Shown here piece by piece: positions 31,463-54,113 of a DNA stretch of 64,000 bases. The stretch is taken from positions 1,116,001 to 1,180,000 of the forward strand of contig CP148074.1 in the NCBI GenBank assembly GCA_037482215.1. The letters run 5' to 3'. How positions within the stretch are numbered: the stretch's first letter is position 1; every line of letters begins with the position of its first letter. A program made the translations under genes and the position numbers. Origin of the DNA: Pseudomonas mendocina (GTDB taxonomy: Bacteria; Pseudomonadota; Gammaproteobacteria; Pseudomonadales; Pseudomonadaceae). The notes below the pieces were generated by a model. It had not been told where the DNA came from, ran no database searches, and saw nothing but the letters and a program-made list of their open reading frames with translations.

Positions 31463-32338
31463 TCAGTGGTACAGCCAGGGCTGCAGCTCATCCAGGTTGG
31501 TTACGACGATCTGCTGCGCCGTAGCTTTAGCGTGCACCTTGGTCGGATCGATCTGATAGCGCTGCAGCACATACTGCACAAGAGCACCTCGGGTCTCGAT
31601 CACCAGCTGTCCGTCACGCATGCCGTAGTCGGCTTCGATAATCGCGCGCTGCTCCGGCTTAAGGCGAGAATCCGGTTCAATGATGACCTGTACCTGACTG
31701 TTCCAGCCCGGATCCTGCTCACGGGTGTTTTCGGTTTCGTCGTCCATTAACTCGGGCTCACCACGAAAGCGGCTGAGCACAAAGTCCCGGTAATCTCGAT
31801 TCTTCTCACAATAGGCGCGAACGTGCCAGCGCATACCGGTGTAGATCAGCGTATGCGGCGCGATCAGGCGGGTTTCGCCGTCCGGCGTCGTGAAGGACAC
31901 ATACTCGCACTCCAGTCGCAGCCCATCGCGGCAGGCCTTGAGCAGTGGGCGCAGCACCTCCGGGCGCACTGAGCGATCCGGCACATCCAGTACCTCAGTG
32001 TGCGCATAGGCCAATGCCAGCCCTTCAACATACGGTGCACGGTCGTGACTCTCGTTGAGCAGGTGCAGGTAGGCGCTGGCGCTGTCATCGATAAACAGCG
32101 GTTTGAAGTGCAGGCTCGGCACATACCCCTTCAAATGCTTGTCGTATTCCAGGTTCTTCGGCGCGTAGTCGGTGATGTAGGAATTGATGTCCTTCGACGC
32201 CTGCTGGCGGCTGATACCGAAGCTCTGCATCAGATGCCCAGTGGTTAAACGTCCTTCCCACCACACCACCGTTTCGATCAGGCGATAGCGCAGCGCCAGA
32301 TCCCAGCGCACGGACTCTATTTCCTGTTTGCGTTTCAT
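31463..32338 (-). CDS. WYL-domain transcriptional regulator (BrxR/CapW-like)
   Basis: A 291-residue regulator. The N-terminal winged helix is RLTTGHLMQSFGISRQQASKDI. The central WYL domain carries GLRLECEYVSFTTPDGETRLIAPHTLIYTGMRWHVRAYC. A C-terminal extension (WCX-like) ends DELQPWLYH. This three-part layout is that of BrxR/CapW, which repress defence operons until infection. It lies just upstream of, and divergent to, the type I restriction-Druantia operon at 33273-51569, so it is the prime candidate for its regulator. The signal it senses is unknown. It would bind in the 138-bp gap at 32339-32476 or upstream of hsdM. Confidence 0.85.
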   Translation of the reverse strand: MKRKQEIESVRWDLALRYRLIETVVWWEGRLTTGHLMQSFGISRQQASKDINSYITDYAPKNLEYDKHLKGYVPSLHFKPLFIDDSASAYLHLLNESHDRAPYVEGLALAYAHTEVLDVPDRSVRPEVLRPLLKACRDGLRLECEYVSFTTPDGETRLIAPHTLIYTGMRWHVRAYCEKNRDYRDFVLSRFRGEPELMDDETENTREQDPGWNSQVQVIIEPDSRLKPEQRAIIEADYGMRDGQLVIETRGALVQYVLQRYQIDPTKVHAKATAQQIVVTNLDELQPWLYH

Positions 32339-32476
32339 CCCAGCCTCACTTGCTCGAAAACTTTACCTGTACGAACGCACACTCTAGATGCGTCAAGCCA
32401 CGCTACATATCTTGATCCTGACAAACAAGCCGGCCAATCCAGGCTGGCTCAGGAAGTGCAATCAAGGAGTAGTGAA

Positions 32477-33145
32477 ATGGCATTGATCAACTGCAGCGAG
32501 TGCGATCGCATGGCCAGCGACCAGGCGGCTGCCTGCCCGCATTGTGGTGCGCCTATTGCTAAGCAGACTGTCGCCGTTCAAATACAGCCCGCCCAAGCCA
32601 TTAGCCGCAATGTCGGTTTCTGGCTGGGCGTCGGTATTTTTCTGTTTCCGGTCATCTTTGTTTGGTTCCTGCTGCGGCAAGGGCATAGCACCACCAGTCG
32701 GGTAATCGGCTTTGCCTGGTTGGCGGTTATGTTGGTTGCGATGGCCTCGGGGGATCGCCCTTCGAGCAAGCCTGCTCCAGGCTCAACCAGTCAGAGCCAA
32801 CCGGCGAAAGTGGTTGCTCCTGTTGAGCCACTGCTAGAAGTGAGCGCTCAGCAACTGGCCCATGTCTATGACCGCAATACGGTCGCGGCGGACCAGTAGT
32901 TCAAAGGCAAGACCTTCAAGGTCACTGGCGTGGTGGACTCTATCAATACCGATCTGTTCGGCAACCCCTACGTCACTCTGCGGGGCGGGGTAAATCAGTT
33001 CATGGAGCCGCAATTCAAGCTTGATGATGCCTATGCCAACTACGCCGCAGGGCTGCAGAGTGGCATGCGCGTCAGTCTGATCTGCATTGGGGGAGGTGAT
33101 GTGGCCAAGACGCCCATGTCCAAGGACTGCACCCCAGCCAACTAA
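32477..33145 (+). pseudogene. Zinc-ribbon/OB-fold (tRNA_anti-like) protein, interrupted by amber codon
   Basis: A 222-codon frame: N-terminal zinc ribbon (CSECDRMASDQAAACPHCG), a membrane segment (FWLGVGIFLFPVIFVWFLL), a second hydrophobic stretch and a C-terminal OB-fold-like domain (FKGKTFKVTGVVDSINTDLF). The frame is broken once, by TAG at 32897-32899 between VAADQ and FKGKTF, with no frameshift. In related proteins this point is uninterrupted (VAADxxYKGK-type), so a nonsense change is likely. The first 140 codons could still make a truncated membrane protein. It precedes hsdM by about 130 bp. Confidence 0.75.
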
Positions 33146-33272
33146 GTTGGAAAATCAGCACCTTAGCCGTTTACCGATACTGGCCCGAAGTTATCCAACC
33201 GGTTAAGGTGTGGCATTGATCACATATATTTCGCAGGGATGGCCTTCCCTGCTTTTTGGAAGGAACGTGCGC

Positions 33273-35192
33273 GTGAACCAGCAAACCCTGGCCCCCTTTA
33301 TCTGGAACATCGCGGACCTGTTGCTCGGAGCCTTCAAACCCTCCGAGTACGGCCGCATTATCCTGCCGTTCACCGTGCTGCGTCGTCTGGAGTGTGTGCT
33401 GGAGCCCACCCGTGACAAGGTGCGCAGCCAGTATGAGGCGATGAAGGCCAGTGGCGTGGATATGGATCTCATCCTGCCGACCACAGCCGGCGCCACCTTC
33501 TACAACGTCTCGCAGTTCTCCCTCGGCTCGGTCGGCTCCACCAGCACCCGCGCCAACATTGAAGACTACATCGCCAAGTTCTCCGCCAACGCCCGCCAGG
33601 TGTTCGAGCACTTCGCCTTTGACCGTTGGCTGGAGAAGCTGGAAAAGGCCAACCTGCTCTATCTGGTGGCGCAGAAGTTTGCAGCAGTCGATCTGCATCC
33701 GGACAAGATCAGCAACCATGAAATGGGCTTGGTCTTTGAACACCTGATCCGCAAGTTTGCCGAGTCCTCCAACGACGATGCCGGGCAGTACTTTACCCCG
33801 CGCGATGTGGTGCGCCTGGCCACCACCCTGGTGTTCGCGCCGGATCATCAGGCGCTCAATGGCGAGGGCGTGGTGCGCACCGTGTACGACTGCGCCGCCG
33901 GCACGGGCGGATTTCTGTCATCGGCCATCGAGCAGGTCTACGAGTGGAACCCCAATGCCCGCCTGGTGCCCTACGCCCAGGAGCTGAACCCGGAGACCTA
34001 CGCCATCTCTGTGGCCGACAAACTGATCCAGGGCTACGACACCCGCAACATCAAACTCGGCAACACCCTGTCTGACGATCATCTACCCCATGAGCAGTTC
34101 GACTACTGCCTGGCCAACCCGCCGTTCGGGGTGAAGTGGGAGAACGTGCAGAAGCAGGTACAAGCCGAGCACAGTCAGCAGGGCTTCGCTGGCCGCTTCG
34201 GTGCTGGCCTGCCGCGTGTGGGTGATGGCTCGCTGCTGTTCCTCATGCACCTGCTGTCCAAGCGCAAGCCGGTTGAGCTGGGCGGCAGCCGCATCGGTAT
34301 CGTGCTGTCCGGCTCGCCGCTGTTCAACGGCGGCGCCGGATCCGGCGAGTCTGAGATCCGCCGCTGGATTCTGGAGAACGACTGGTTGGAGGCGATCATC
34401 GCCCTGCCCACCGACCTGTTCTATAACACCGGTATCGGTACCTATATCTGGGTGCTGTCCAACCACAAGGACGCGCTGCGCAAGGGCAGGGTGCAGCTGA
34501 TCGATGCCAGCGCCATGCACGCGCTCATGCGCAAGAGCCTTGGCAGCAAGCGCAAGTACCTCTCGGACGAACAGATTGCCGAGATCGCCAAGCTGCACGA
34601 GGCCTTCGAGGAAGGCCCGAACTCGAAGATTTTTTCCACCACCGACTTCGGCTACCGCCGCATCACCGTCGAGCGCCCGCTGCGTCTGCGTTTTTCGGTC
34701 ACTCCGGACAAGCTCGCTACGTACCGCGACACCAAGGGTGCCGATCAGGCCGAGGCCTTTGCTGGCGTGCAGGGCGAGTTCGACAACCTGCCGGCCTTCC
34801 TCAAGGCCGCCGGCATTAAGAAGCTTGGCAAGGGCGCGCTTAAGTCCGCGCTGGCCTGCTTCGGTGAGCGCGATGCCAGCGCCCAGCCGGTGCTGGACGA
34901 CAAGGGCAACCAACAGGCCGACGCCGATCTGCGCGAGTTCGAGAACGTACCGCTTAACCAAAGCATCGACGACTACTTCGCCCGCGAAGTGCTGCCCCAT
35001 GTGCCGGATGCCTGGATCGACACCGGCAAGACGGACGCGAAGGATGGCCAGGTCGGCATCGTCGGCTACGAGATCAACTTCAACCGCTACTTCTACGTCT
35101 ACCAACCGCCGCGCCCACTGGCCGAGATCGATGCCGATCTCAAGGCTGTAGAGGTCGAGATTGCCGCGCTGTTGGGCGAGGTAACGGCATGA
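33273..35192 (+). CDS. hsdM: Type I restriction-modification methyltransferase subunit HsdM
   Basis: A 639-residue N6-adenine methyltransferase. The N-terminal HsdM helical domain (FIWNIADLLLGAFKPSEYGR) is followed by SAM motif I (VYDCAAGTGGFLSSAI), the catalytic motif IV (YCLANPPFGVKW) and a C-terminal region for subunit contact. It modifies the target of the cognate HsdS. The GTG start at 33273 has GGAAGGA at 8 bp; a longer frame from 33210 has none. The stop overlaps the hsdS start by 4 bp (ATGA), giving translational coupling. It is the first gene of an 18-kb co-directional operon. Confidence 0.95.
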   Translation: MNQQTLAPFIWNIADLLLGAFKPSEYGRIILPFTVLRRLECVLEPTRDKVRSQYEAMKASGVDMDLILPTTAGATFYNVSQFSLGSVGSTSTRANIEDYIAKFSANARQVFEHFAFDRWLEKLEKANLLYLVAQKFAAVDLHPDKISNHEMGLVFEHLIRKFAESSNDDAGQYFTPRDVVRLATTLVFAPDHQALNGEGVVRTVYDCAAGTGGFLSSAIEQVYEWNPNARLVPYAQELNPETYAISVADKLIQGYDTRNIKLGNTLSDDHLPHEQFDYCLANPPFGVKWENVQKQVQAEHSQQGFAGRFGAGLPRVGDGSLLFLMHLLSKRKPVELGGSRIGIVLSGSPLFNGGAGSGESEIRRWILENDWLEAIIALPTDLFYNTGIGTYIWVLSNHKDALRKGRVQLIDASAMHALMRKSLGSKRKYLSDEQIAEIAKLHEAFEEGPNSKIFSTTDFGYRRITVERPLRLRFSVTPDKLATYRDTKGADQAEAFAGVQGEFDNLPAFLKAAGIKKLGKGALKSALACFGERDASAQPVLDDKGNQQADADLREFENVPLNQSIDDYFAREVLPHVPDAWIDTGKTDAKDGQVGIVGYEINFNRYFYVYQPPRPLAEIDADLKAVEVEIAALLGEVTA

Positions 35193-36532
35193 GCCATTAC
35201 AAGCCCTATCCGGCCTACAAGGACTCCGGGGTGGAGTGGTTGGGGCGGGTGCCGGAGCATTGGAGCGTGGTACGCATGCGCTATTCCGCCACCTTGAACC
35301 CTCCTGTTCGTCGCGACTTGTTGGAAGATCCAGATCAAGAGGTTTCCTTCTTGCCGATGGAGGCTATTGGCGAGGATGGTTCGCTCAACCTCGAGCAGAA
35401 TCGTCCGGTAGTCGAAGTGAGAAGTGGCTATTCCTATTTTGAGGATGGTGATGTGGCCTTCGCTAAAGTCACGCCCTGCTTTGAGAATGGGAAGGGGGCT
35501 CTGATGCGGGGGCTGCAGTGCGCAGCAGGGTTTGGCACCACCGAGTTGACTGTGCTTCGTCCGAATCCAGCGGTAGCAGATGCCCGCTACATCAACTACA
35601 TCGTTCAAGGCTCTAGTTTTCGTGCCTTCGGTGCCGGTGCAATGACCGGAGCGGGTGGCCTGAAGCGAGTTCCGGATGAGTTCACGCGCAATTTTCCGGT
35701 ATCGCTTCCTGAACTCGGTGAGCAGCGTGTAATCGCCAGCAACCTAGACCGCGAAACCGCCCGCATCGACTCACTGATTGAAAAGAAAACCCGCTTTATC
35801 GAACTGCTGCGCGAAAAGCGCCAGGCGCTGATCACCCATGCCGTCACCAAGGGCCTCGATCCCAATGTGAAGATGAAAGACTCCGGCGTGGAGTGGCTGG
35901 GGGAGGTGCCGGAGCATTGGGAGGTATTGCAGCTACGACATACTGCTCGGTTGGAGTCAGGCCATACACCCAGTCGCTCAAAGCCAGAATACTGGGTCGA
36001 CTGCACTGTGCCGTGGTTCACGCTCGCAGATGTCTGGCAGGTTCGTAGTGGTGAGCAGAAGTACGTATCCGAGACATCTGAGATGGTTAGTCAGCTAGGC
36101 CTGGAGAATTCATCAGCCCGTTTGCTGCCTGCCGGCTCCGTGTTCTTGTCCCGGACTGCCTCTGTGGGCTTTACGGGCATCATGGCGGTCGACATGGCAA
36201 CCTCCCAGGACTTCGCAGTGTGGACATGTACTAGTGAGCTATTTAACGAGTACCTCTACTACGTACTGCTGGGCATGAAACCGGATTTTGATCGATTGAT
36301 GATGGGCTCGACCCACAAGACCATCTACATGCCGGATATAGAGGCTATTCGAATTGCTCGTCCGCCAGTTGATGAGCAGCGAGGCATCGTCAGTGTGTTG
36401 AGTGGCCAGCTTGGTCGCTTCAAATCTGTCATTGATAAGACCGGGCGCAGTATCGAACTCCTGAGAGAACGCCGCTCCGCCCTGATCACCGCCGCCGTCA
36501 CCGGTCAGATCGATCTGCGGGAGGCGGTATGA
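35189..36532 (+). CDS. hsdS: Type I restriction specificity subunit HsdS
   Basis: A 447-residue DNA-recognition subunit with two target-recognition domains (residues ~20-180 and ~235-390), each ended by a conserved helical spacer. The internal duplication is plain: KDSGVEWLGRVPEHW at residue ~11 and KDSGVEWLGEVPEHW at residue ~230, and SLIEKKTRFIELLREKRQALITHAV versus SIELLRERRSALITAAV. It directs the HsdMS complex to a bipartite site; the sequence recognised cannot be read off. It overlaps both neighbours by 4 bp. Confidence 0.95.
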   Translation: MSHYKPYPAYKDSGVEWLGRVPEHWSVVRMRYSATLNPPVRRDLLEDPDQEVSFLPMEAIGEDGSLNLEQNRPVVEVRSGYSYFEDGDVAFAKVTPCFENGKGALMRGLQCAAGFGTTELTVLRPNPAVADARYINYIVQGSSFRAFGAGAMTGAGGLKRVPDEFTRNFPVSLPELGEQRVIASNLDRETARIDSLIEKKTRFIELLREKRQALITHAVTKGLDPNVKMKDSGVEWLGEVPEHWEVLQLRHTARLESGHTPSRSKPEYWVDCTVPWFTLADVWQVRSGEQKYVSETSEMVSQLGLENSSARLLPAGSVFLSRTASVGFTGIMAVDMATSQDFAVWTCTSELFNEYLYYVLLGMKPDFDRLMMGSTHKTIYMPDIEAIRIARPPVDEQRGIVSVLSGQLGRFKSVIDKTGRSIELLRERRSALITAAVTGQIDLREAV

Positions 36533-37476
36533 GCCAGGGCCGCAGCCTGCGTCTGTTTCTGGTGGATGGCACGCCCAATGGCCTGCTCACCGCCGAGATC
36601 ATGAACTGGACCGGCCATGTGCTGACCGGCCCGCGCTCCAAGCTGGCCGAACTGGTGCAGCGCCCCGAGTGCGCGCGCACCGGCGTGTACTTTCTGGTCG
36701 GCCCCGACCCGGATAACAGCCTGCGCTCGCAGGTGTATATCGGCGAGTCGGACGATGTGGCCAAACGACTGAAAAGCCATAACCGCCCGGAAGAGGCTGG
36801 CGGCAAGGACTTCTGGGAGCGCGTCTGTCTGGTGACCAGCAAGGACCAGAACCTGACCAAGGCTCATGTGAAGTACCTGGAAAGCCTGCTGATCGGCATC
36901 GCCAGCAATCTGGGCCGCTGCGAGCTGGTCAACGGTACCGCGCATGAATACGTCAGCCTGCCCGAGTCCGACCGCGCCGATATGGCCTTTTTTCTGGAGC
37001 AGATCCGCACCGTGCTGCCGGTGCTGGGCTTCGACTTCCTGCGTGAGCTGACCAAACCTTCCGCGCCCGCTGCTGCCAGCACGGCGGCACCGGTCAGCCG
37101 ATCTCCGCGCTTCAGTCTGGAGGTTCCACGCTACCGCTTGAGCGCCCAGGGCCAGGAAATCGACGGTGAATTTTTTGTACTCAAAGGCTCCAAGGCCCGC
37201 GCCGAATGGGTGGGCACCGAGCGCGGCTATCAGGGCCTGTTCAAGCAACTGGTCGACGAGGGCGTACTGGTTGCCGATGGCGGCGAGCACCTGAACTTCA
37301 GCGACGACTACGCCTTCAGCAGCCCCAGTGCGGCAGCGGCGGTGGTCTGTGGTCGCGCCGCGAATGGGCGTACATCTTGGGTGGTTGAGGAAACAGGGCA
37401 GACGTATGCCGCTTGGCAGGATTCGCAGTTGAATAGCCTGGTATCTGGAGCAAGCAGTCCATCAAGTGATGACTGA
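36529..37476 (+). CDS. GIY-YIG nuclease with DUF4357
   Basis: A 315-residue protein. An N-terminal GIY-YIG-type fold (GVYFLVGPD near residue 45 and QVYIGESDDVAKRLKSH near 67, with FWERVCLVTSKDQNLTKAH downstream) is joined to a C-terminal DUF4357 domain (EWVGTERGYQGLFKQLVDEG). The exact catalytic Tyr/Arg set was only partly verified. Proteins of this layout are recurrent companions of type I restriction loci, with unproven role. It is locked to hsdS by a 4-bp overlap, so it is produced with the methylase complex. It may be an accessory nuclease. Confidence 0.8.
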   Translation: MSQGRSLRLFLVDGTPNGLLTAEIMNWTGHVLTGPRSKLAELVQRPECARTGVYFLVGPDPDNSLRSQVYIGESDDVAKRLKSHNRPEEAGGKDFWERVCLVTSKDQNLTKAHVKYLESLLIGIASNLGRCELVNGTAHEYVSLPESDRADMAFFLEQIRTVLPVLGFDFLRELTKPSAPAAASTAAPVSRSPRFSLEVPRYRLSAQGQEIDGEFFVLKGSKARAEWVGTERGYQGLFKQLVDEGVLVADGGEHLNFSDDYAFSSPSAAAAVVCGRAANGRTSWVVEETGQTYAAWQDSQLNSLVSGASSPSSDD

Positions 37477-37497
37477 TGACGGAGCGCAGGAGGCGTT

Positions 37498-37998
37498 ATG
37501 AGTGAGCCTATGTTGAGTAAGGCTGCTGAGCTGGAGTTTCAGAAGTCTTGTTATGGCAAGTGTGCCGCGATTAAGCGCAGTGATCTGAGGCCTCTATTGG
37601 ATGAGAGGAAGCTGCTGGCTTCTGATCTGTTCTACCAGGCCCTCCAGTACGTCATTTCGCATAGCGAGAAGCACCGTGAATTCAGCCGTTTGGGTGTTCT
37701 GGTAGATCTTTTCGATGTCCGGGATAACCAGCTGTTTATCGCCTATTGGCTCAGTGAGCGCCTAGGCCTGAAGTGCTCGATGGACAAAGGGCAAGTTCGT
37801 TTCAAGGCCACTGGGCAACCGGCCAAGCCTGACTTGCGGTTCAAGGAAGGAGTCTCTGAGTTTTTTAAGCGAGGCTTGAAGCGCTCATCGCAAGACACCT
37901 CCGCTGCGGAGAAGAAAAAACCGTTGCCTAAGCGTGTTGATATGCTGGATTCTTGGGCTCGGCTTCCTGGCAGCTACGGAGCGGGCAAGAGAAATTGA
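37498..37998 (+). CDS. Unknown protein embedded in type I RM operon
   Basis: A 166-residue soluble protein; I do not recognise a family. The first ~110 residues look like a compact alpha/beta domain (AAIKRSDLRPLLDERKLLAS, EFSRLGVLVDLFDVRDNQLF). The last ~50 are basic and lysine-rich (FFKRGLKRSSQDTSAAEKKK), suggesting nucleic-acid contact. It sits 21 bp after the GIY-YIG gene and 17 bp before the PIN-domain gene. The N-terminal half resembles a dimerising partner more than an enzyme, which is impression only. GGAGGCGTT precedes the ATG. Confidence 0.65.
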   Translation: MSEPMLSKAAELEFQKSCYGKCAAIKRSDLRPLLDERKLLASDLFYQALQYVISHSEKHREFSRLGVLVDLFDVRDNQLFIAYWLSERLGLKCSMDKGQVRFKATGQPAKPDLRFKEGVSEFFKRGLKRSSQDTSAAEKKKPLPKRVDMLDSWARLPGSYGAGKRN

Positions 37999-38015
37999 TC
38001 AATTCGGATGATGAA

Positions 38016-38681
38016 ATGAAGCAGCGTCTGATCCTGGTGGACTACGAGAACATCGGTAAGATCGACCTGTCGCTGCTTGATGCTTCCTATAAGGCCATCA
38101 TTTTTGTAGGGGCCAGGCAGAACACGCCCAAGGCTTCGCGCAAGCCGTCCACTGCGCATCGCTTTTCACGTGTGGACTTCCAGAAGATTGAGGGCGTGGG
38201 TAAGAACGCGCTGGATTTTCATATCGCCTTTCAGTTGGGGCGTACCTTTGAGACTGCGCCGGAAACGCAGTGCATCGTCCTTTCCAAGGATAAGGGTTTC
38301 GACCCGCTCCTGGCCTACCTGAACAAGAACGGCTTGGCGTGCCAGCGCATTGCTGCGCTTGAAGAATTGTTGGCGGAAGAACTGCCTGAGCCAGTAGCTC
38401 TAGCCCCAGAAAATGCATGCGGACGCTGCGGCAAGGCCAGTTGCGTGGAGCACCTGGGTGGCCAGTGGTGTAGCCATTGCGGCCATTTCTCCAGCCCGCC
38501 GGATCCACAGCAGATGCCTTCTCGCCAGACGAAGTATCGCGAAAAGAAAAAAGACAGTTACAGCTACGAACCGCTAATGGGGACCTGTGCCTGGTGCCAC
38601 CAGAGAACCGACATGAGTGGTGGCATCTACGACGACGGTGAGTGGATGTGCCCAGGCTGTATCAGCGCTTACGCCCGATAG
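38016..38681 (+). CDS. PIN/NYN-type nuclease with C-terminal zinc ribbons
   Basis: A 221-residue protein. The N-terminal ~115 residues are a PIN-like/NYN domain: LILVDYENIGKIDLSLL (first acidic residue), KNALDFHIAFQLGRTF (central Asp) and CIVLSKDKGFDPLLAYL (third Asp), the acidic pattern of metal-dependent RNases. The C-terminus has two zinc-ribbon modules (CGRCGKASC...CSHCGHF and CAWCHQRTD...CPGC). The start is the ATG at 38016. It lies inside the RM operon before hsdR. An RNase effector triggered by restriction or infection is a reasonable guess; no function is established. Confidence 0.75.
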   Translation: MKQRLILVDYENIGKIDLSLLDASYKAIIFVGARQNTPKASRKPSTAHRFSRVDFQKIEGVGKNALDFHIAFQLGRTFETAPETQCIVLSKDKGFDPLLAYLNKNGLACQRIAALEELLAEELPEPVALAPENACGRCGKASCVEHLGGQWCSHCGHFSSPPDPQQMPSRQTKYREKKKDSYSYEPLMGTCAWCHQRTDMSGGIYDDGEWMCPGCISAYAR

Positions 38682-38735
38682 ACAGTATTTGATGTGCCGT
38701 TCCCAGGGATGGCCGAGAAGTTTAAGGATAAAACC

Positions 38736-41924: not shown

Positions 41925-41972
41925 GAGACGTTGTTGTCGGTAAAGCGGCTAGGGAGTCAAAAGGAGTTTGCA

Positions 41973-44900
41973 ATGGACGTGACTGCACCTGTTACCAGTG
42001 CTGCGAAGGCATGGTTGAGTGAGTTTCTGTTTAACCGTGAGATGTTCAAGGGGCCTGACGGTACACCTCTTTATAGTTATCACGTTACAGAGGACGAGTT
42101 CCGGTCGCTTGTTGAGCTACTTCGTTCCTACTTCAAGCGTGGTGCTGTGGCAAACAGTTCCGCTCATCTGGCGGCATGTTTTTGTCTATTCGTGAGCGAG
42201 CAGTATCGGCGCGCCTATAACAGCTCTTGGTCATGGTCAGGACCTGAGTCTTTGCTGGAGGCATCCTTGTCTCCGCAGCAGCATGCCAGCCTAACGGCCA
42301 CTGGGTTGGCCTATTGGAAACGGCCGATTCGACTCCGGGAGAATGGGCGCGACTGGCTTGGCTCGCTATTCGCTGAGGGCGGGCTTCCGTGGCCATTGGT
42401 TCAAAGTGAGTCACACGGGTTCGGGCGCGCTGTGCGCAGGGGTATTAAGCATTTCTACCGAACTGAAGGTAACCGCAGGACAACCGCGGACCTAATGGCG
42501 GACTTCGAAAATGACCTACCGCTCATTTTTCGCAACCTCGAAACGCGTCGGCTTTTAGCGGGCATCGTTGATCAGCTCATGTATCTGGTTGAGCATCACC
42601 CACTCAAGGATCAACAGGATCCAGTCAGTTATCTGGATCAGGCAGCCCCAGGATGGACAGATGCCTTCCCAATTCCATTAGATGAAAGCAATGCACGCAC
42701 GCTGCTCAATGACTGGCTCCGCGACGCCGGGCAGAAGCGCAAGGAGCGTCAAGAGTCCTTGGAGAGGGCGAGGGCCTTCACTTGCGAACATTTTCTGCAT
42801 GGCACATTGCCGCAATGGTTGATACGCACCGAATTGATCCTGCCTCATGAGGCAGAGTTTGCGGTTGATTCGACAAGTCTGAGTAGTACCCGACTTGAGC
42901 TGGCCTACTACGAGGGCGAAAGGCTCCTAGCTAGAGGGCCCGCCGTTTACGGACAGCTTACTGAAAAAGGTATCAAGGCGCGCTTCTCCAATCCTCAAGT
43001 CACGCTCGAACGTCGCAAACCTGGCGAGCCGGTGAGTCTTCGCTTGTTGGACAACGGGCGTGTGGTGCATTGCCAATACTTCGATGGCAGCGCCCTCGAT
43101 TATCACGATGTACCTTTGATTTTCGAGAGTCGCTCCGAGCGCTGGCAACTGGTTGCTGTGTCTAGTTGCTCGCTGTCATCTGGACTGGTTCGACTTCGAG
43201 TTCCCAAGGGCTTTTCGACCAGTTGCGAAGGTGACGCTGCAAAGCCTTTGGCCGAGGACCAAGAAAATGGCCTCTGGATGGATGCAAACTCCAACTTCAC
43301 GCTGGTAAAGGGGGAGGATAGCTATCTAGTCGCGCTTAATCAGGCGGACAGCGATGACTCTAAACCAACTCTCTCGGGTGTGTTTGCACTTTACGAAAGC
43401 ACCCCCTCGATGGTCTTCCTGGGGTGGCCCAACCTTGAGTTGCCTGAAGGTTACCCTTATTCCAGAGATGACTTGTTCGAGTTCGTCAATGGCAAGCTTC
43501 TTGACCGACGACTTATCGGCCAATACGGCTCGGTGCGTTACACCCTGCGCACTCGATCGGGAAAGACACTCATGCAGCGCCGTTTCGGCGTGCTGCCTAG
43601 AGATTTTGGTCTTTCGCTGTTCCCCGAAGTACGCGAACAGCCTGCACGTATCGAGATCAAAGGGGCTGCGCAGCTTGATCCGCATATTGTCAGCAATGCC
43701 TTGGTAGTGGAGCAGTCAGAAAATTCGCTGTATCTGCGCCATCGAGGAGACGTACCGCCTTCGACCTTTATGATCGAAGTAGGTCAAGGATTGCCCACGC
43801 TGCAGTTGCACTTGCCCTATCCCTACCAGGGGGCCCGCCTGCTGGACCAATTCGGCAATCCGTCGCGAGCCAGAGAGTTGTTACTGGTTGATCTGATGGG
43901 GTATCGCATCTCACTGACCTCAGGGTTAACCCAAGGACAGACCTTCCACATGCAGTTGGAACTGGTGAGCGCGGAGCAGCAGCCGCATCCGCAACGCACG
44001 TACAGCATTCGGGTAGGTTCGGCACCTGTGATGCTCAACCTGTTCAGCTACCTAGCTGACATGCAGAACATGCTTGGAGCAGTAGATGAGCAGGATGCCT
44101 ATATCAGGCTTTCTGTTGAGGCCGAAAAACCACTGCTTAAATTCGATATTCGCCGATATGGTGGCCAGCTTGAGTGGGAAGGTCGCTATGCCTTCCATAT
44201 AGGCGGCGTCTCCAATAAAGCTGTACTGGATGGTGTGAAGGCAGAGGCTATGCTCCTGTCCGATCCCAAGCGAGCCCCTTTGCAGTTGATCGAGAAGACC
44301 AGTGAATCAGTTGGTACTGGTAGCTTCGAGATACCACAGGCTATGCAGTCTCGTGGGCCGTGGCTGATCTACCCTGCAGACAACTCAGGCATTCGTTTTC
44401 GTCCAGCGCTGTATTTGCTGCCTGAAAACAGTCTGGATACCGCAGGAGAGGTTATTTCACTACACCGGGCCGCTGAGCTGTTTCACCCTTGGCGCAATCC
44501 GTATGTCATCGAGCAGCAGGTTGCTGCTATGGCGGACGATTTTAACCACAGTGGCTGGCAGTACTTAGCCGACTTGAAGCAGAACTACCATCACCTGCCG
44601 CTATCATCGTTCGAGACCTGGAAGGCTCTATCGCGCAACCAAGAGGCATTGAGCTTCGCAGTTTTCCGTCTTGAGATGGATGAATCTTTCTGCCTTCGCA
44701 TCCGTGACGAGCTCGCAGTTATTTGGGAAACCATCCCGCTTCCTCTATGGGTACGGGCGCATCGGCTTTTCCACAACGCTATGCGCTTGACTGGGCTTCC
44801 CGAGGTTCTGGTCAACAATCTTGTATCGAATCGTGCCAGTGTACTGCGCTTCATCGTTTCCGGATTTGAATATCTTGGGGATTACCTGAGCACCGGTAGC

Positions 44901-45275
44901 CGAAGCTCATTGATAAAACTGCCACCAGAAAATGTTCTGCCGATCTGGTATCAGGAGCTGCGCCGATTTCATGAAGCTAACCGGAATTGGCCAACTCTTT
45001 TGGGTCGCGAGCTTTCCAACTGGATTGACGGGCAGAAACTGCCGCCTTTGGTAAAGGCTCTTTCATTGGCTGAGTTCACTGATGCGGTCACCTATCTGCC
45101 CATATTCATGGCCTATGTCACAGCCGGTCGGGCAAGAATTACTGACCTGCCGGCGACACCAGCCTATCTGAAATTTGCGATACGATTGATTTCCGACTTC
45201 GACCGTCAGGGATGGTTCGTGCCTGCACACGCCCTGATGGTGTCTTATTTGCTCGCCTCGCAGGACGAGGCATAA
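41973..45275 (+). CDS. druH: Druantia type III protein DruH (STY4851/ECs_5259 family)
   Basis: An 1100-residue protein without a recognised enzymatic motif. It resembles the large STY4851/ECs_5259-family proteins that precede DruE in Druantia type III systems. It has an N-terminal alpha-helical part (LSEFLFNREMFKGPDG, RGIKHFYRTEGNRRT) and a long beta-rich middle. Evidence is size, composition and direct pairing with a ~2100-residue DUF1998 helicase only 9 bp downstream. The ATG at 41973 has AAAAGGAG at 7 bp. Druantia III protects against phages by an unresolved mechanism. Confidence 0.78.
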   Translation: MDVTAPVTSAAKAWLSEFLFNREMFKGPDGTPLYSYHVTEDEFRSLVELLRSYFKRGAVANSSAHLAACFCLFVSEQYRRAYNSSWSWSGPESLLEASLSPQQHASLTATGLAYWKRPIRLRENGRDWLGSLFAEGGLPWPLVQSESHGFGRAVRRGIKHFYRTEGNRRTTADLMADFENDLPLIFRNLETRRLLAGIVDQLMYLVEHHPLKDQQDPVSYLDQAAPGWTDAFPIPLDESNARTLLNDWLRDAGQKRKERQESLERARAFTCEHFLHGTLPQWLIRTELILPHEAEFAVDSTSLSSTRLELAYYEGERLLARGPAVYGQLTEKGIKARFSNPQVTLERRKPGEPVSLRLLDNGRVVHCQYFDGSALDYHDVPLIFESRSERWQLVAVSSCSLSSGLVRLRVPKGFSTSCEGDAAKPLAEDQENGLWMDANSNFTLVKGEDSYLVALNQADSDDSKPTLSGVFALYESTPSMVFLGWPNLELPEGYPYSRDDLFEFVNGKLLDRRLIGQYGSVRYTLRTRSGKTLMQRRFGVLPRDFGLSLFPEVREQPARIEIKGAAQLDPHIVSNALVVEQSENSLYLRHRGDVPPSTFMIEVGQGLPTLQLHLPYPYQGARLLDQFGNPSRARELLLVDLMGYRISLTSGLTQGQTFHMQLELVSAEQQPHPQRTYSIRVGSAPVMLNLFSYLADMQNMLGAVDEQDAYIRLSVEAEKPLLKFDIRRYGGQLEWEGRYAFHIGGVSNKAVLDGVKAEAMLLSDPKRAPLQLIEKTSESVGTGSFEIPQAMQSRGPWLIYPADNSGIRFRPALYLLPENSLDTAGEVISLHRAAELFHPWRNPYVIEQQVAAMADDFNHSGWQYLADLKQNYHHLPLSSFETWKALSRNQEALSFAVFRLEMDESFCLRIRDELAVIWETIPLPLWVRAHRLFHNAMRLTGLPEVLVNNLVSNRASVLRFIVSGFEYLGDYLSTGSRSSLIKLPPENVLPIWYQELRRFHEANRNWPTLLGRELSNWIDGQKLPPLVKALSLAEFTDAVTYLPIFMAYVTAGRARITDLPATPAYLKFAIRLISDFDRQGWFVPAHALMVSYLLASQDEA

Positions 45276-45284
45276 GGAGTGGCG

Positions 45285-48200
45285 ATGCGATTTTTCAGGG
45301 ACCTAATCGAGCAAAGCCTTGAGCGTACCCGTGAGGCAACGCTCGGCGTCTTGGGCATCAATCATCCGGGTTTGCGTCGTCACCTGAGCGAAAGCATGGT
45401 GAACACATTGGGCGCCGAGGGCTGCTTCCTTGCGCCGCCAGTTTTCGAGCACACCTTTGGCTGGCGTGAAGCTGAACTGCGCCTGCAGGATCTGCCGTCG
45501 GTGGGCTTGCTATCGCCCAGCCTGCTTGACACGTTGGCCAGTGCACCAGCCTACCGCTTTCCGAAAACAGCCCACCCCTATGTTCATCAGTTGCAGGCCT
45601 GGCGCATCCTGCTCGACGAACAGCCCCGCTCAGCGGTCATCACCACCGGAACTGGTTCGGGCAAAACCGAATGCTTCATGGTGCCGATCCTCGAGGATCT
45701 GATCCGCGAGCATGAGCGTAGCAAGACTGCGTTGGTCGGTGTCCGTGCCCTTTTTCTCTACCCGCTTAATGCCCTGATCAACTCGCAGCAGGAGCGCCTC
45801 GACGCCTGGACCCGCAGGTACGGCAGCGACATTCGCTTCTGCCTGTACAACGGCAAGACTGAAGAACGCGCCGACAAGGTTCGCAAGGAACAGCAGCAGA
45901 AGCCCAACCAGATCCTGTCGCGGGAACTGTTGCGCAAGGAACCGGCACCGATCCTGATGACCAACGCCACCATGCTGGAGTACATGCTGGTGCGTCAGGT
46001 CGACAACCCGATCCTGGAGATTTCCAGGCAGCAGAAATCGTTGCGCTGGATCGTCCTCGATGAGGCACACACCTATGTGGGCTCCCAGGCGGCGGAAATG
46101 TCTCTGTTGCTGCGCAGGGTGGTCCAGGCCTTCGGCAGGCAGTCCGAGCAGATTCGCTTCATCGCCACCTCGGCCACCATCGCCGGAGCCGATGCGCAGG
46201 AGCGACTGAAACGCTATCTGGCCGACCTGGCGGGCGTTCCGCTCGACCAGGTCGAAGTGATTGGCGGCTCGCGCGTTTGGCCCGATCTGGCATTCGACTC
46301 TGCAGGCAACGATATCGGCCTGCAGGCCATCCGGGATATCGAACCGGAAACGGCAGTATCCGCCGCACGCTTCAAGGCCCTGTGCGACAGCACCATCGCC
46401 AGGAGCCTGCGCCATGCGGTGGTCAGCTCCGACAAGCCCCTCGACCTGCATGACCTGATTGGTACAGTTTCCGAGCAGTTGCAGGGAGGCAGCTCCCTCG
46501 AACAGCAGCAGAAGGTGCTCGACTGGCTCGACACCATAACCGGCACGCATCCGGCCGAAGGCCAGCCGCCGTTCCTCAAACTCCGCATCCACCTGTTCCA
46601 GCGCATGCTGCATGGCCTCTGGGCCTGCGTAGACCCGCAGTGCAGTGCCAAATCAGCTCATCTGCAGGACTGGCCCTTCGGTAACGTCTATGTGACCCAG
46701 CGTGCGCGCTGCGAGTGCCATGCCCCGGTGTACGAACTGGGCTTCTGTGACGATTGCAAGACGCCGCACCTGCTAGCAGAAGATCGCAATGGCGAACTGC
46801 ACCAGCCCAGCCCTTACGCCGGCGATGAGTTCGCGCTCAATCACGAAGGCGGTGGCGAGGATGCGGCAGCCGAACTGTTGAAGGCGAATGCCGCCAGTGA
46901 TCGCCTGATCATTGCCGGATCGCCTGCGGCGCATGAGCCTTACGTCTCAATCACTCTGGATCTTGAGAGCCAAAAGCTAGGTGCAGTCAATGCCGCCCGC
47001 AATATCAATCTCTGTCTAGTTAAAGAAGGAAAAGAGGGTACAGACAAAAAAGAAAAAGACTTCGCCTGCTGCAGCCACTGTGAGCACTCGACTTGGGGGT
47101 CGAGCGACTTCCTGCGAAAAGCCTACCTCGGTGCACCGTTCTACATTGCCAACGCCGTGCCGACCGTCTTGGAATTCTGTCCCGATCCTGACAAGGCGGA
47201 TTGCGAAGGCCGCTCTCCCGAAGAGCTGCCGGGGCGCGGGCGCAAGCTGATCACCTTCACCGACAGCCGCCAGGGCACCGCGCGCATGGCGGTGAGGATG
47301 CAGCAGGAAGCGGAGCGCTCACGGCTACGCGGGCTGGTATTTGAAAAACTGAGGAATGCGCAGGCCAAGGCCGATGCTGCACCCAAGGACACCCCCAGCG
47401 GAAATCCTGCCGAGCTTCTTGCCCAGGCAGAAAACCTGGAAAAAATAGGCATGGCTGGCATGGCGGCAGAACTGCGAAAGCAAGCTGAACTTTTGCATAG
47501 CGGCGCAGCGCCTGCCAATCAGACCGAGACCATTCCTTGGCCGCAGATGGCCGACACCATCGCGGCAGCCAGGGATATCGACAAGTTCATCCTGCGCTAC
47601 AACCGCTATGCCAATCCGGCGCTGTTCGATGGCAGTGAAGGCGGTCTGACCATGGCGCGCCTGCTGCTGGCCCGCGAGTTCTCCCGGCGTCCCAAGAACC
47701 AGAACAGCACGGAAACGCTGGGACTGATCAAGGTCGGCTACCAGGGGCTGGAGAAGGTGACGACATCTCCACCTCTGTGGGTCGATACCCGCGCCATTCC
47801 CGCAATGGGCGCTGCAGATGATTCCAGAACTGCTCTGACGCTGGATGACTGGCGCGACTTTCTCAAGGTGGCACTCGACTTTTATATACGGGAGAACACC
47901 TTCATCCTAATGGAAAACAAGATGCGCCGCTGGATGGGCAGCCGCTTCAGTCCAAAGTCGCTTTTCTCGCCCAAGAGCGACGTGCAGGAAAGCAGCACTA
48001 TCCGAAAGTGGCCGCAGATCAAGCCGGGCACACCCCACCGTCTGATCAAGCTGCTCGAGCTGGCAACCGGCATGAATCGCACCATGAATGCGGATGCCGA
48101 CAAGATCAACAGCTGGCTCGAAGCGGCGTGGCTGGCGTTGATCAATGCCGGCATTCTGGAGTCCTCCGATACCGGACATCGTTTGCGCCTGGAGAGCCTC

Positions 48201-51200
48201 ACATTCTCGTTGCCTAACGAGGGCTGGGTTTGCCCCTTGACCCGGCGCATCTTCGATACCACCTTCCGTGGTCTGACCCCCTATCTGCCACAAAAGCTGC
48301 TGAGCCAGGACTACCGCTGCCAGAAGATACAGCTTCCCGCCTTGAGCAGCCTGATGCCGGATGGCTCCCCGGTAGCCAAGCAGGTGCAGATCCGTCAGCT
48401 GGCCGCAAAAGATCCTGTCATTACCCAGCTGCGCCAGGAAAGCTTGTGGACGGATATCAGCGACCGAACGGTCGAGGGCGGTTTTTACTACCGAACCGCA
48501 GAGCACTCGGCGCAGCAGTCGGCAAAACGGCTGGATGACTATGTCGAGGAATTCAAGCGCGGCGATATAAATGTGCTGAACTGCTCCACCACTATGGAGA
48601 TGGGCGTGGATATCGGCGGTATCTCTGCTGTGGTGATGAACAACCTGCCGCCACATCCGGCCAACTATCTTCAGCGCGCCGGTCGAGCCGGGAGACGCAG
48701 TGAGGCTCGGGCCATCGCCTATACGCTGTGCAAGGCTGATCCGCATAACCAGCGTGCCTTCACCAATCCCAAATGGCCGTTCGTGACTGCCATTCCGGCA
48801 CCAAGCATCACCCTCAGCTCCGCGCGGATCGTACAGCGGCATGTCAACTCGCTGCTGCTGGCTCTATTCCTGCGCATGCACAGCAGCAATGATGGCGACC
48901 GTACCAAGCTGACCCTGCACAGGTTCTTCGCCTCGGACGAATCACCTGCTCAGCAGTTCGTAGCCTGGCTCACGGCAAGTCCGGATGATTATGAGGGCGC
49001 CGTTAAGCAGCTGGTGCGCGGCACCTGCCTGGAAGGTCGCTCGCTTAGCTCAATAACCGGTGAAACCCGGCTGGCATTGCGCGACCTCGAGGAGCGTTGG
49101 CTTGGTGAGTACCGCAATATCAACCACAAGCTCCAGACCGGCAGCGACGGGCCATACAAGAAGGCCCTGATGCTGGAAAAGCAGCGCCATGAAAATGAGT
49201 ACCTGCTCCGCTATCTGGCGTCGTCCGCATTCCTACCGGGCTATGGCTTCCCGACTGACGTGGTGAGCCTCAAGACATACAACGTCGAGGATTTCCTGCA
49301 TCAGCAGCGGAAAAGCGATGCTAGTCGCGAGGATAGCATCTTCGACAATAAGGAAATGCCCTCGCGCAGCCTGAACATCGCCATTCGCGAATATGCCCCC
49401 GGCGCTCAGGTGGTGATAGATGGTCGCGTCTACCGCTCTGCCGGTGTCAGTCTGCAGTGGCATGCCGACGGCCAAGTTAACGAAGCACAGAAATTCGACA
49501 TTGCCTGGCGCTGCCCGGAATGCGGCAACACGGGGGTGATCGAAAACGCCTATGCCAATAACGAAGGACTGTGCTGCTCGCATTGCACAACACCGATTCC
49601 ACCCAGCGAGCGCCGCATGGTGTTACGTCCGGGCGGCTTTGTGAGCGATTTCTACGAGGAAACCACCAACGATGTCACTTCGCAGAAGTACATCCGCGTT
49701 GAGCGACCGCGCATCCAGCTGTACGGCGAAAGCATTGCCTTACCTGATCAGCGCTGTGGCTTCGTGCGCTTCGGTCATGACGGCAGCGTATTCCATCATT
49801 CGTCCGGCGAACATGAAATGGGTTATGCCGTATGCATGACCTGTGGCCGCGCGGAATCCATGCTTGCCTCGGGCGAAGTGCCCAGAGATCTGCAACCCGA
49901 TAAAGCTCACCGCCCGGTTGGCGGGCTGGCCGGCAGCCGCAAGGAGCATGACTGTTCTGGGGAGGCGGTCAAGGCTAGTCTGCACCTGGGCTACCAGATC
50001 CGTACCGATGTGTTGGAGCTCACCCTTAGGAATCCCCTTACGGGGGAATGGCTTCCTGACAATCCCGAGGGCCGGCTGATTGCAACAACGCTCGGCGTTG
50101 CCATGCGGGACGTGATCGCCGACCGACTCGGTATTGCCAGCAGTGAAATGGGCTTCAGCCATCGCCTCGATCGCGACCGTGACACACGGCAAGGCCGCTC
50201 TGTCATCCAGCTGTTCGATGAAGTCAGCGGGGGGGCGGGTTTCGTGCTGGCTGGCCTGAGCGATATCGCATTGCTGCTGGGTAAGGCTCTGGATCGGCTG
50301 CAATGTCCGGCCAACTGCGAGAATGTCTGCTCGCAATGCTTGGCCAGTCAGGATAGCCGTGTCGAGCGTGAAGAGCTGGATCGCAAGTTGGCGCTGCGTT
50401 GGCTGAGCGAATGCCGACTGGTTGAGCATCTGAGGCTGCCCGATGTATTTGCTGGCCTGCATGGCGCGCGCTATTGCTCAGTTGGTCCGCTACGCGAACT
50501 GAGTGCCGCCATCAACTCGCTGGATCGCCGCGATCAGACTACATCGATTCTGCTGTGCCTCCACGGCGACCCTAGGGATTGGGATCTTGACCATCCCCGG
50601 TTCCGGGAACAGGTGTTGACCTGGGCCATTTCCGAACGAATCAAGGTTCGTCTCGGCATTGCTGAACCAGCGCTGTTGAACTCGGAGCAAAAGGAAACCC
50701 TGGCACTGCTTGCCCGTCTGGGCGTTGAGCTAGTCGAGTGGCAAACCGGAGCGTTGCAAGCCCCGTATATGGTTGCCCAACTGTCATCCCAGGCTGGTGC
50801 CCGGAGCCTATACAGCAACATGAACAACGTCGCGGTGCCCGGATCTGATTGGCTACAAGGACATACCGATGTGGTTTGGGCATCCAGCAAATTGATGCCA
50901 GCTGTTATGGGTAACTCCATAGACAGTGCAGCCTGGCACCAACCGCCGCAGGGGGCGCGTATCGTTGAAATTTCTTCGCAGCTTGACGGGCCTGTTAACA
51001 CCCTAACAAACCGCCTCAAAGCGATGATCGATGCTCAGATGCCGGAGTTGGCAGCTTTGATCCGCAATGATCGGGCAATTTCGGTCAGCTACTCAGATCG
51101 CTACCTGAAATCACCCTTGTCGGTGATGTTCCTTACAGGTTTCCTGGAGCTGTTTCAAAATGATGAGCTTCAGTCTTTATCGATACAGACGCTAGCGCCG

Positions 51201-51569
51201 AGTGGTAACCAACCAAGCTATCTGCTCAGTCATGATTGGATGCGGAGGGATGACCAGGTCACGATTCTCAGGCTCTGGCTGATGGAGCAATTTGATATTG
51301 AGCCGGACATTACTGTAATGAATAACCCTCGAGATTTGTTGCACAGCCGGGTTATTACAACCAGATGGGCATCAGGTAGCACCAGTAAGATCCTATTGGA
51401 TCAAGGTATGGGCTACTGGCGCGGAAGGATGCCATACAGGGATCAGATGAACTTTGACTTCAATGCTTCACCCCATGATCAGAAAGAGCTTTTGTGCGAT
51501 AGATATGGATACGTTCAAATGCAACAGGGTGGGGAGTGGCCGACCTATGTCAGTTGCGTTATTGATTGA
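45285..51569 (+). CDS. druE: Druantia DruE, DUF1998-containing SF2 helicase
   Basis: A 2094-residue helicase. Motif I is TTGTGSGKTECFMVPILE near residue 120. Motif II is VLDEAHTYVGSQAAE near 260, followed by TSATIAGADAQ (III). The second RecA lobe has CSTTMEMGVDIGGI and YLQRAGRAGRRSEARA (VI) near 1110-1130. Zinc-binding clusters occur at CECHAPVYELGFCDDC, at CPECGNTGV...CCSHC and in the DUF1998 domain (CPANCENVCSQCLASQDS, ~residue 1680), which also has QLFDEVSGGAGFV. The ATG at 45285 has AAGGAG at 5 bp. It is the universal core of Druantia systems and the last gene of the operon. Confidence 0.85.
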   Translation: MRFFRDLIEQSLERTREATLGVLGINHPGLRRHLSESMVNTLGAEGCFLAPPVFEHTFGWREAELRLQDLPSVGLLSPSLLDTLASAPAYRFPKTAHPYVHQLQAWRILLDEQPRSAVITTGTGSGKTECFMVPILEDLIREHERSKTALVGVRALFLYPLNALINSQQERLDAWTRRYGSDIRFCLYNGKTEERADKVRKEQQQKPNQILSRELLRKEPAPILMTNATMLEYMLVRQVDNPILEISRQQKSLRWIVLDEAHTYVGSQAAEMSLLLRRVVQAFGRQSEQIRFIATSATIAGADAQERLKRYLADLAGVPLDQVEVIGGSRVWPDLAFDSAGNDIGLQAIRDIEPETAVSAARFKALCDSTIARSLRHAVVSSDKPLDLHDLIGTVSEQLQGGSSLEQQQKVLDWLDTITGTHPAEGQPPFLKLRIHLFQRMLHGLWACVDPQCSAKSAHLQDWPFGNVYVTQRARCECHAPVYELGFCDDCKTPHLLAEDRNGELHQPSPYAGDEFALNHEGGGEDAAAELLKANAASDRLIIAGSPAAHEPYVSITLDLESQKLGAVNAARNINLCLVKEGKEGTDKKEKDFACCSHCEHSTWGSSDFLRKAYLGAPFYIANAVPTVLEFCPDPDKADCEGRSPEELPGRGRKLITFTDSRQGTARMAVRMQQEAERSRLRGLVFEKLRNAQAKADAAPKDTPSGNPAELLAQAENLEKIGMAGMAAELRKQAELLHSGAAPANQTETIPWPQMADTIAAARDIDKFILRYNRYANPALFDGSEGGLTMARLLLAREFSRRPKNQNSTETLGLIKVGYQGLEKVTTSPPLWVDTRAIPAMGAADDSRTALTLDDWRDFLKVALDFYIRENTFILMENKMRRWMGSRFSPKSLFSPKSDVQESSTIRKWPQIKPGTPHRLIKLLELATGMNRTMNADADKINSWLEAAWLALINAGILESSDTGHRLRLESLTFSLPNEGWVCPLTRRIFDTTFRGLTPYLPQKLLSQDYRCQKIQLPALSSLMPDGSPVAKQVQIRQLAAKDPVITQLRQESLWTDISDRTVEGGFYYRTAEHSAQQSAKRLDDYVEEFKRGDINVLNCSTTMEMGVDIGGISAVVMNNLPPHPANYLQRAGRAGRRSEARAIAYTLCKADPHNQRAFTNPKWPFVTAIPAPSITLSSARIVQRHVNSLLLALFLRMHSSNDGDRTKLTLHRFFASDESPAQQFVAWLTASPDDYEGAVKQLVRGTCLEGRSLSSITGETRLALRDLEERWLGEYRNINHKLQTGSDGPYKKALMLEKQRHENEYLLRYLASSAFLPGYGFPTDVVSLKTYNVEDFLHQQRKSDASREDSIFDNKEMPSRSLNIAIREYAPGAQVVIDGRVYRSAGVSLQWHADGQVNEAQKFDIAWRCPECGNTGVIENAYANNEGLCCSHCTTPIPPSERRMVLRPGGFVSDFYEETTNDVTSQKYIRVERPRIQLYGESIALPDQRCGFVRFGHDGSVFHHSSGEHEMGYAVCMTCGRAESMLASGEVPRDLQPDKAHRPVGGLAGSRKEHDCSGEAVKASLHLGYQIRTDVLELTLRNPLTGEWLPDNPEGRLIATTLGVAMRDVIADRLGIASSEMGFSHRLDRDRDTRQGRSVIQLFDEVSGGAGFVLAGLSDIALLLGKALDRLQCPANCENVCSQCLASQDSRVEREELDRKLALRWLSECRLVEHLRLPDVFAGLHGARYCSVGPLRELSAAINSLDRRDQTTSILLCLHGDPRDWDLDHPRFREQVLTWAISERIKVRLGIAEPALLNSEQKETLALLARLGVELVEWQTGALQAPYMVAQLSSQAGARSLYSNMNNVAVPGSDWLQGHTDVVWASSKLMPAVMGNSIDSAAWHQPPQGARIVEISSQLDGPVNTLTNRLKAMIDAQMPELAALIRNDRAISVSYSDRYLKSPLSVMFLTGFLELFQNDELQSLSIQTLAPSGNQPSYLLSHDWMRRDDQVTILRLWLMEQFDIEPDITVMNNPRDLLHSRVITTRWASGSTSKILLDQGMGYWRGRMPYRDQMNFDFNASPHDQKELLCDRYGYVQMQQGGEWPTYVSCVID

Positions 51570-51838: not shown

Positions 51839-52027
51839 TGGCATCTCCTTACAGGTAGCCGCGCTCAGGTGTCTGAACACTTCCTTAGGTGAAGTCAGTT
51901 CACGGCCTTTGCGCAGACGCAGGCTGGCCAGTTGCTTGGCCATCTGCAGGATGTCGTTTTCCGTCACCGGCGAATCGACCAGGTAGGTGCCGGTCGTGTC
52001 ACTGGCTTTCAGCTTGTGCAGGCGCAT
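51839..52027 (-). pseudogene. Truncated RadC-like (MPN/JAB) gene, N-terminal fragment
   Basis: The fragment starts MRLHKLKASDTTGTYLVDSP after an AAGGAGG ribosome site. It carries the segment that normally leads into the RadC MPN domain (LRLRKGRELTSPKEVFRHL). The frame then turns into SAATCKEM and the small membrane protein, so the whole catalytic His/Asp domain is missing. It overlaps the 3' end of the metal-binding protein gene by 29 bp. It looks like a deletion scar in the recombination module. Confidence 0.6.
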
Positions 52028-52943: not shown

Positions 52944-53034
52944 GGAGAGTCTCCTGGAAATGAAAAAAGGCCAGCCACGCAGCGCGAACTGCATGGACTG
53001 GCCAAGGGGAGGGAAGGGATGTAGTAGTTGGGTT

Positions 53035-54039: not shown

Positions 54040-54113
54040 AGTGTTCACCTTGCAGAAATAGAAACGCCCGACCTGCAACGAAGCGGGTCGGGCGTTATGG
54101 GGTGGGTAAAAGG

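Follow-up and report, generated by a model that had tools for sequence, protein, structure and literature searches.

Do a type I restriction-modification (RM) system and a Druantia III system that share one run of genes form a single layered defence, or has one been attached to the other as a separable part? The question is raised by a 64,000-nucleotide stretch of Pseudomonas mendocina DNA (contig CP148074.1, positions 1,116,001 to 1,180,000; hereafter the window), in which eight reading frames, all uninterrupted, tightly spaced and on the + strand, occupy 33273-51569: hsdM, hsdS, a GIY-YIG/DUF4357 gene, a gene for a 166-residue protein, a PIN7 gene, hsdR, druH and druE (Table 1). A preliminary description of the locus, made from the sequence by eye, took the two systems to be co-regulated, next to a WYL regulator, and to act possibly as one layered system. 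Modular cargo appears to fit the data better, and we hold with reasonable confidence that this is a modular type I RM operon with the core hsdM-hsdS-GIY/DUF4357-hsdR and two cargo positions, situated on an island integrated at a transfer-messenger RNA (tmRNA) gene, with Druantia III as an interchangeable add-on. The inner position (slot 1, before hsdR) would hold the 166-residue protein and PIN7, a predicted RNase by its family, and the outer position (slot 2, after hsdR) would hold druH-druE (druHE).

The eight frames, their strand and their spacing are as first described: hsdM and hsdS, and likewise hsdS and the GIY-YIG gene, overlap by 4 bp, and the widest gap is 54 bp if hsdR starts at 38736. 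Domain searches in Pfam, PADLOC and NCBIfam agree with the names given to the genes. HsdM, HsdS and HsdR have the methylase, target-recognition and nuclease-motor domains of a type I RM above the Pfam cut-offs; the curated cut-offs of NCBIfam, whose models TIGR00497 and TIGR00348 describe named subgroups and not type I RM in general, were missed by hsdM (78.5 vs 242.75 bits) and hsdR (157.6 vs 284.55 bits), and matches beneath these cut-offs point to a diverged type I RM lineage. Both Druantia III models are covered almost end to end (PDLC00050, 22-1114 of 1114 amino acids; PDLC00037, 2-2094 of 2096), and druH and druE lie on the same strand 3 bp apart. The start of druH is probably the ATG at 41973, preceded by AAGGAG and 48 bases past hsdR; its product matches the single solved DruH chain that was found, 9tud_A, over no more than residues 26-278 (E 1.6e-23), and 9tu7, the solved chain matched by druE, bears the name "DEAD/DEAH box helicase."

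The three genes between hsdS and hsdR are less familiar. The GIY-YIG domain of the first falls slightly under the Pfam cut-off (21.0 vs 22.6 bits). The PIN7 gene may start at 37995 (TTG) or 38016 (ATG), and its product has 1187 homologues and no PADLOC match. No family match was found for the 166-residue protein in Pfam, PADLOC or NCBIfam; among its 38 homologues, 34 were aligned with it (alignment A1), and the C-terminal motif DMLD..AR.PG..G.G is invariant in this family while the rest varies. Searches of solved structures with the profile of the 166-residue family and with the PIN and GIY-YIG proteins gave no match at E <= 1.

The modular reading is carried by the close relatives of hsdR. 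A search of 398 genomes of the genus (E <= 1e-100) matched 66, the window's own genome included; the close type, with hsdR of 78-95% identity, is present in 16 genomes besides the window (four of them partial: G467, G542, G380, G634), the loci of all 16, G507 among them, being retrieved, and the slot counts leave out relatives below 78%. The core hsdM-hsdS-GIY-hsdR is near-constant, the GIY-YIG gene being present in 13 of the 14 close relatives in which the whole hsdS-hsdR stretch is covered; L118 is the exception. In these same 14 loci slot 1 holds a Schlafen/AlbA-HATPase gene in four (L048, L114, L121, L124), a YhcG/DUF1016 PDDEXK gene in four (L118, L119, L122, L123), the 166-residue protein with PIN in one (L125), and no co-directional frame of at least 80 amino acids in five (L115, L116, L117, L120, L128). 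Slot 2 could be read in 15 other loci with a visible hsdR 3' end (L048, L114-L127): druHE follows the close hsdR in one (L048, matching L003 of P. fontis), a PDDEXK_4 gene in two, an Mrr-type gene in one and a specificity/methylase pair some 450 bp on in two, and nine have no co-directional frame within 500 bp. Variable genes occupy fixed places in a constant RM core, with two slots and six cargo types when the window is included. Some of the cargo matches PADLOC models, candidate or known: the YhcG gene of L118 (the only one tested) and the Mrr gene match PDC-S02, both PDDEXK_4 genes match PDC-S26, and druHE matches its own models; not all cargo types do so, the two Schlafen/AlbA genes tested reaching at most 30.5 bits. 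Locus L125 (genome G467) combines the same RM type and slot 1 genes with the downstream flank Gp3-YqaJ-DUF932, and has no druHE.

The 166-residue protein and PIN were also considered as a fixed pair, and this was rejected: the gene for the former is present in 10 of the 398 genus genomes (E <= 1e-3, own included), the pair recurs only in G467, and seven of the eight remaining genomes with the gene (L146-L152, homologues 42-46% identical; the eighth, G647, has a partial match) show nothing like the window PIN within 18 kb. Beyond the close type, five hsdR relatives below 78% identity (L129-L133) have no druH or druE match in their stretches, and one of them (L129) has an ISL3 transposase after hsdR. 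A gene annotated as an ISL3-family transposase likewise lies within bases of the end of hsdR in more distant plasmid relatives (L110 14904-16208, L111 14904-16208, L113 15060-16328); judged by this gene order, the distant plasmid RMs look as if they were passenger genes of insertion sequences.

The junction of the two systems is found outside the window. Pseudomonas fontis (L003) is collinear with hsdR-druH-druE (38734-51569) over about 12.9 kb at 80% DNA identity, so that the arrangement is not private to the window genome. In the P. fontis type (L003/L048) a Schlafen/AlbA gene stands in place of the window's 166-residue protein and PIN. Homologous loci in which hsdR and druH were always separated would have spoken against the preliminary description; the P. 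fontis type keeps them adjacent. The order of all eight genes, whose conservation the preliminary description had named as a check, is found in no other locus examined, the P. fontis type being the nearest. Of the earlier interpretation, the co-directional run that joins a type I RM to Druantia III is supported, as is a BrxR/CapW-type regulator close to it; a conserved eight-gene order and WYL control over the whole run are not. A fixed eight-gene RM-Druantia unit was accordingly rejected after the druH, hsdR and 166-residue gene searches.

On the Druantia side, druH was found (own genome included) in 11 of 369 genomes of the class (E <= 1e-3), and in 11 of 398 genomes of the genus and 13 of 390 of the order (E <= 1e-20); 18 plasmid records matched, all below 60% identity, and no match was found among the phages and viral_contigs. 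We examined 40 druH loci, comprising 5 from genome_contigs, 3 of the 18 plasmid records and 32 other genome stretches. Two Vreelandella loci (L002/L006) resemble the window at 80% DNA identity in druH-druE alone (41993-51569) and not at all upstream, where druHE follows a different type I RM with an hsdR 21-22% identical to that of the window. No RM is seen within 9.7-10 kb upstream of druH in L049 (74% druH identity), L004 or L005 (70%); in L004 druH comes after dynamin-like genes and in L005 after an RNB-domain gene. The pair druHE is thus found beside type I RMs repeatedly, not always, and the Vreelandella loci indicate that it moves separately from the window RM, as a cassette. Locus L056 has the order hsdM-hsdS-hsdR-YgjP-druH-druE as in Vreelandella, with an hsdR 31% and a YgjP 29% identical to the Vreelandella proteins; this order may be an old or a repeated arrangement.

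Upstream of hsdM the distance from CTGG to TAAGGT is exactly 24 bases in 14 of 15 hsdM leaders (that of the window among them; L003 and L048 probably represent a single species), and these promoter-like boxes are present in 13 of the 14 non-window loci, with or without a WYL gene in sight. A crude scan of low power, in which site counts were near or below those of shuffled sequence, detected nothing resembling a promoter or terminator between hsdR and druH, and no + strand sigma-70-like site anywhere in 32300-52200. The run is probably co-transcribed, Druantia III being reached by read-through from the hsdM promoter; a druH promoter could conceivably lie inside hsdR, the 48-bp gap leaving scant room for one. 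A hairpin at 33233-33252 followed by a T run before hsdM was considered as a terminator or attenuator and discarded, the consensus fold of 13 leaders giving essentially no structure.

The WYL protein is indeed a BrxR/CapW-like regulator near the run, as first reported: its 291 residues align with BrxR (7t8k) over residues 12-276, near its full length, and it scores 147.6 and 142.6 bits with the CapW-type structures 7tb5 and 7tb6. The interval 32339-33272, earlier treated as a spacer between WYL and hsdM, contains a + strand zinc-ribbon frame that had been overlooked; its part at 32477-32899 gives Zn_ribbon_3 at E 2.2e-5 and 24.2 bits vs a cut-off of 27, and the frame continues beyond the TAG to 33145. 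The closest comparison is with L119 (WYL 85% and hsdM 92% identical), in which a different frame occupies the same interval; over 32339-32470, 74 of 132 positions are identical in the best ungapped alignment, mostly within 32349-32415, a block that is a candidate promoter/operator for the WYL gene. This block and the hsdM promoter region have no 7-mer in common (0.9 expected) and three 6-mers (4.1 expected), and so show no sign of a shared operator. Of the 14 other loci that include an hsdM start, two show a WYL homologue, partial in one case, and neither of the two has druHE; absence is unproven in the three (L003, L117, L118) that extend just 0.4-1.1 kb upstream. In L071, where no RM is seen, a 44% identical WYL gene stands immediately upstream of druHE in divergent orientation; BrxR-like proteins thus occur with either part. 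Given the rarity of the WYL gene beside the recurrent hsdM boxes, and the gene intervening before hsdM, its proposed control of all eight genes is doubtful, and the WYL protein more probably represses a promoter close by, acting locally or on its own gene, than switches the whole run. On its other side the WYL gene is adjoined by umuD- and umuC-like genes (29427-31131, - strand), not seen at the same place in the P. fontis type locus. In that locus a relative of the YfjJ-like gene at 28412-29413 of the window lies directly before hsdM, as it does in L117 and L120.

Several observations weigh against modular cargo. The hsdR-druH junction is shared with the P. fontis type, so the link is not a one-off. 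L125 offers no clean empty site, since about 2.7 kb with three minus-strand frames separate hsdR from Gp3 and its hsdR is disrupted. HsdM or HsdR lies within 12 kb upstream of druH on the same strand in 11 of the 40 loci (near-duplicates L003/L048 and L002/L006 included), a count made with a small home-made panel of hidden Markov models that may miss unlike RMs and on upstream sequence of 10 kb in L002-L006, 9.7 kb in L049, just 2.8 kb in L068 and 0.9 kb in L079. Of these 11, two are of the window type (L003/L048), three of a YgjP type (L002/L006/L056) and four of a P. luteola type (L023/L061/L063/L064), and the remaining two, L062 and L065, have HsdR at a distance of 8-9 kb; L021, with its HsdR match 12.3 kb upstream, was left out. 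Such recurrence of type I RM upstream of druHE could reflect selected cooperation rather than passive cargo. It lends weight to an integrated layered system in which RM and Druantia III, co-regulated by WYL, depend on each other, for example if DNA ends made by HsdR feed the DruE helicase-nuclease, or if RM methylation marks self for Druantia III. The operon-like layout, a junction common to two lineages, upstream RMs of at least three unlike lineages and the WYL gene beside druHE in L071 are all in keeping with this, as is the published finding that type I RM is enriched at distances of up to 20 kb from several Druantia III clusters (PMC13192584). Yet 29 of the 40 druH loci, L049, L004 and L005 among them, have no HsdM or HsdR within 12 kb upstream (some stretches being shorter), druHE is lacking in 14 of the 15 other loci where the 3' end of hsdR can be seen, and WYL is not seen in 12 of the 14 other hsdM-start loci (three with at most 1.1 kb upstream); we therefore consider full integration quite unlikely. 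A bolder variant, in which Druantia III and type I RM have been repeatedly united in one transcription unit and one DNA pathway, HsdR translocation and cutting making the ends and single-stranded stretches that DruH and DruE engage, would be a two-stage machine arisen at least three times with unlike RMs, and is more improbable still.

At the other extreme, the two systems may be mere neighbours, separately transcribed and adjacent because islands gather defence genes. That druH has its own ribosome-binding site 48 bp from hsdR, and that druHE stands with no adjacent RM on Azotobacter and Marinobacter plasmids and in Oceanisphaera and Zobellella, would suit this explanation; the junction shared with P. 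fontis does not, nor does a gap with little room for a promoter (one inside hsdR being possible) and with no promoter- or terminator-like site in the crude scan, which found no + strand promoter anywhere in 32300-52200. We regard it as unlikely.

Under modular cargo, the type I RM, which cuts unmethylated DNA (PMC12255303), would act early on incoming DNA. Druantia III is described in PMC13192584 as late-acting, DruH being the likely sensor and DruE a helicase-nuclease that works on single-stranded intermediates; in the window it would then act on the replication intermediates of phages that escape RM, as a late back-up. The slot 1 genes may add further nuclease layers.

The kind of arrangement is already published in outline. 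Predicted superoperons that contain both type I RM and Druantia III are reported in the description of CoCoNuTs (PMC11090510); CoCoNuTs form the centre of these, and a CARF/RtcR regulator is often present. Neither is among the families found for the window's eight genes and WYL, and in the window druHE comes directly after hsdR. In the RptR-RMS-DarTG2-M48 island of Escherichia coli (PMC12255303) a type I RM likewise encloses a second defence system and comes with a small repressor of its own; the place between hsdS and hsdR is described there as a potential hotspot of recombination. The cargo at that place is DarTG2, and RptR is the repressor, whereas the window has a second slot after hsdR, with Druantia III, and a WYL-type regulator nearby. 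The window WYL protein matches BrxR nearly end to end, and type I restriction makes up 34 of the 210 BrxR-associated systems counted in PMC9122601; the window WYL gene is separated from hsdM by a gene, and the word Druantia is absent from the main text of that paper. The Druantia III survey (PMC13192584) concerns the same DruH and DruE pair and notes enrichment of type IV RM, besides type I, around several clusters; the system tested in it comes from a clade of Escherichia/Klebsiella that is often carried, together with Zorya II, on SPIDER elements. ARMADA II with Druantia III (PMC12458937) is another case of co-encoding with a second defence system on a mobile element, with synergy shown; the partner there is ARMADA II, here type I RM. 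Our literature search, mostly open-access and largely at listing level, found no description of this hsdR-druH fusion. The locus offers a natural case of one type I RM core that swaps attached genes at two fixed points, so that cooperation can be tested against mere promoter sharing by comparing loci with and without druHE; the unlike RM lineages recurring upstream of druHE add gene-order detail to the published neighbourhood enrichment.

Table 1. Features of the window, in window coordinates.
Feature	Position	Strand	Basis or remark
Partial tmRNA 3'-end copy, candidate left island end	26287..26306	.	Repeat search
WYL transcriptional regulator, BrxR/CapW family	31463..32338	-	Pfam WYL 51 bits; BrxR 7t8k 217.7 bits
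Candidate promoter/operator block of WYL gene	32349..32415	-	Conserved with L119
Zinc-ribbon reading frame between WYL and hsdM	32477..33145	+	In-frame TAG at 32897-32899
Candidate hsdM promoter	33180..33209	+	CTGGCC 33180-33185, TAAGGT 33204-33209; fixed box spacing in 14 of 15 leaders
hsdM, type I DNA methyltransferase	33273..35192	+	N6_Mtase 182 bits, HsdM_N 88.5 bits (Pfam); NPPF motif
hsdS, type I specificity subunit	35189..36532	+	Methylase_S 71.5 bits (Pfam); PADLOC PDLC03105 388 bits
GIY-YIG/DUF4357 protein, PADLOC candidate PDC-S14	36529..37476	+	PDLC04923 445 bits; DUF4357 67 bits
166-residue protein of no recognised family, cargo slot 1	37498..37998	+	Invariant C-terminal KxxDMLDxxARxPGxxGxG
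PIN7 protein, cargo slot 1	37995..38681	+	PIN7 77.9 bits (Pfam); four CxxC motifs
hsdR, type I restriction subunit	38694..41924	+	Likely start ATG 38736; SWI2_SNF2, HSDR_N, ResIII, T1R_D3-like above cut-offs; VELK, DEAH motifs
druH of Druantia III, first gene of cargo slot 2	41973..45275	+	PADLOC PDLC00050 1957 bits
druE of Druantia III, YprA-like helicase	45279..51569	+	PADLOC PDLC00037 2523 bits; chain 9tu7 1049 bits
Recombination-directionality-like (Gp3), YqaJ, DUF932 genes	51999..55142	-	Pfam; L125 homologues 79-84%
Tyrosine integrase of island	62592..63848	-	Phage_integrase, Phage_int_M, Arm-DNA-bind_3

The integrase adjoins a tmRNA gene whose start, at 64033 in window numbering, already lies beyond the window (tmRNA in L134), and a second partial copy of the tmRNA 3' end was found by the repeat search at 15031-15050. 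With the integrase beside tmRNA and partial copies of its 3' end to the left, the defence operon probably belongs to an island that spans about 37.7 kb, from about 26.3 to 64.0 kb. The segment 15031-26306, flanked by the tmRNA 3'-end copies, has a secretin gene (22501-23898), an integrase gene (25245-26249) and lower guanine-cytosine content; it may be a filamentous prophage that shares this integration site with the defence island, the two lying in tandem. Within the island, an AAA_13 ATPase gene (59421-61712, - strand; PADLOC candidate PDC-S06, 585 bits) is a further candidate defence gene, and an ArsR-type regulator, a TauE/SafE transporter and a metallo-beta-lactamase-fold protein are encoded in a row at 56524-59014 (+ strand), presumably a cassette for sulfur handling.

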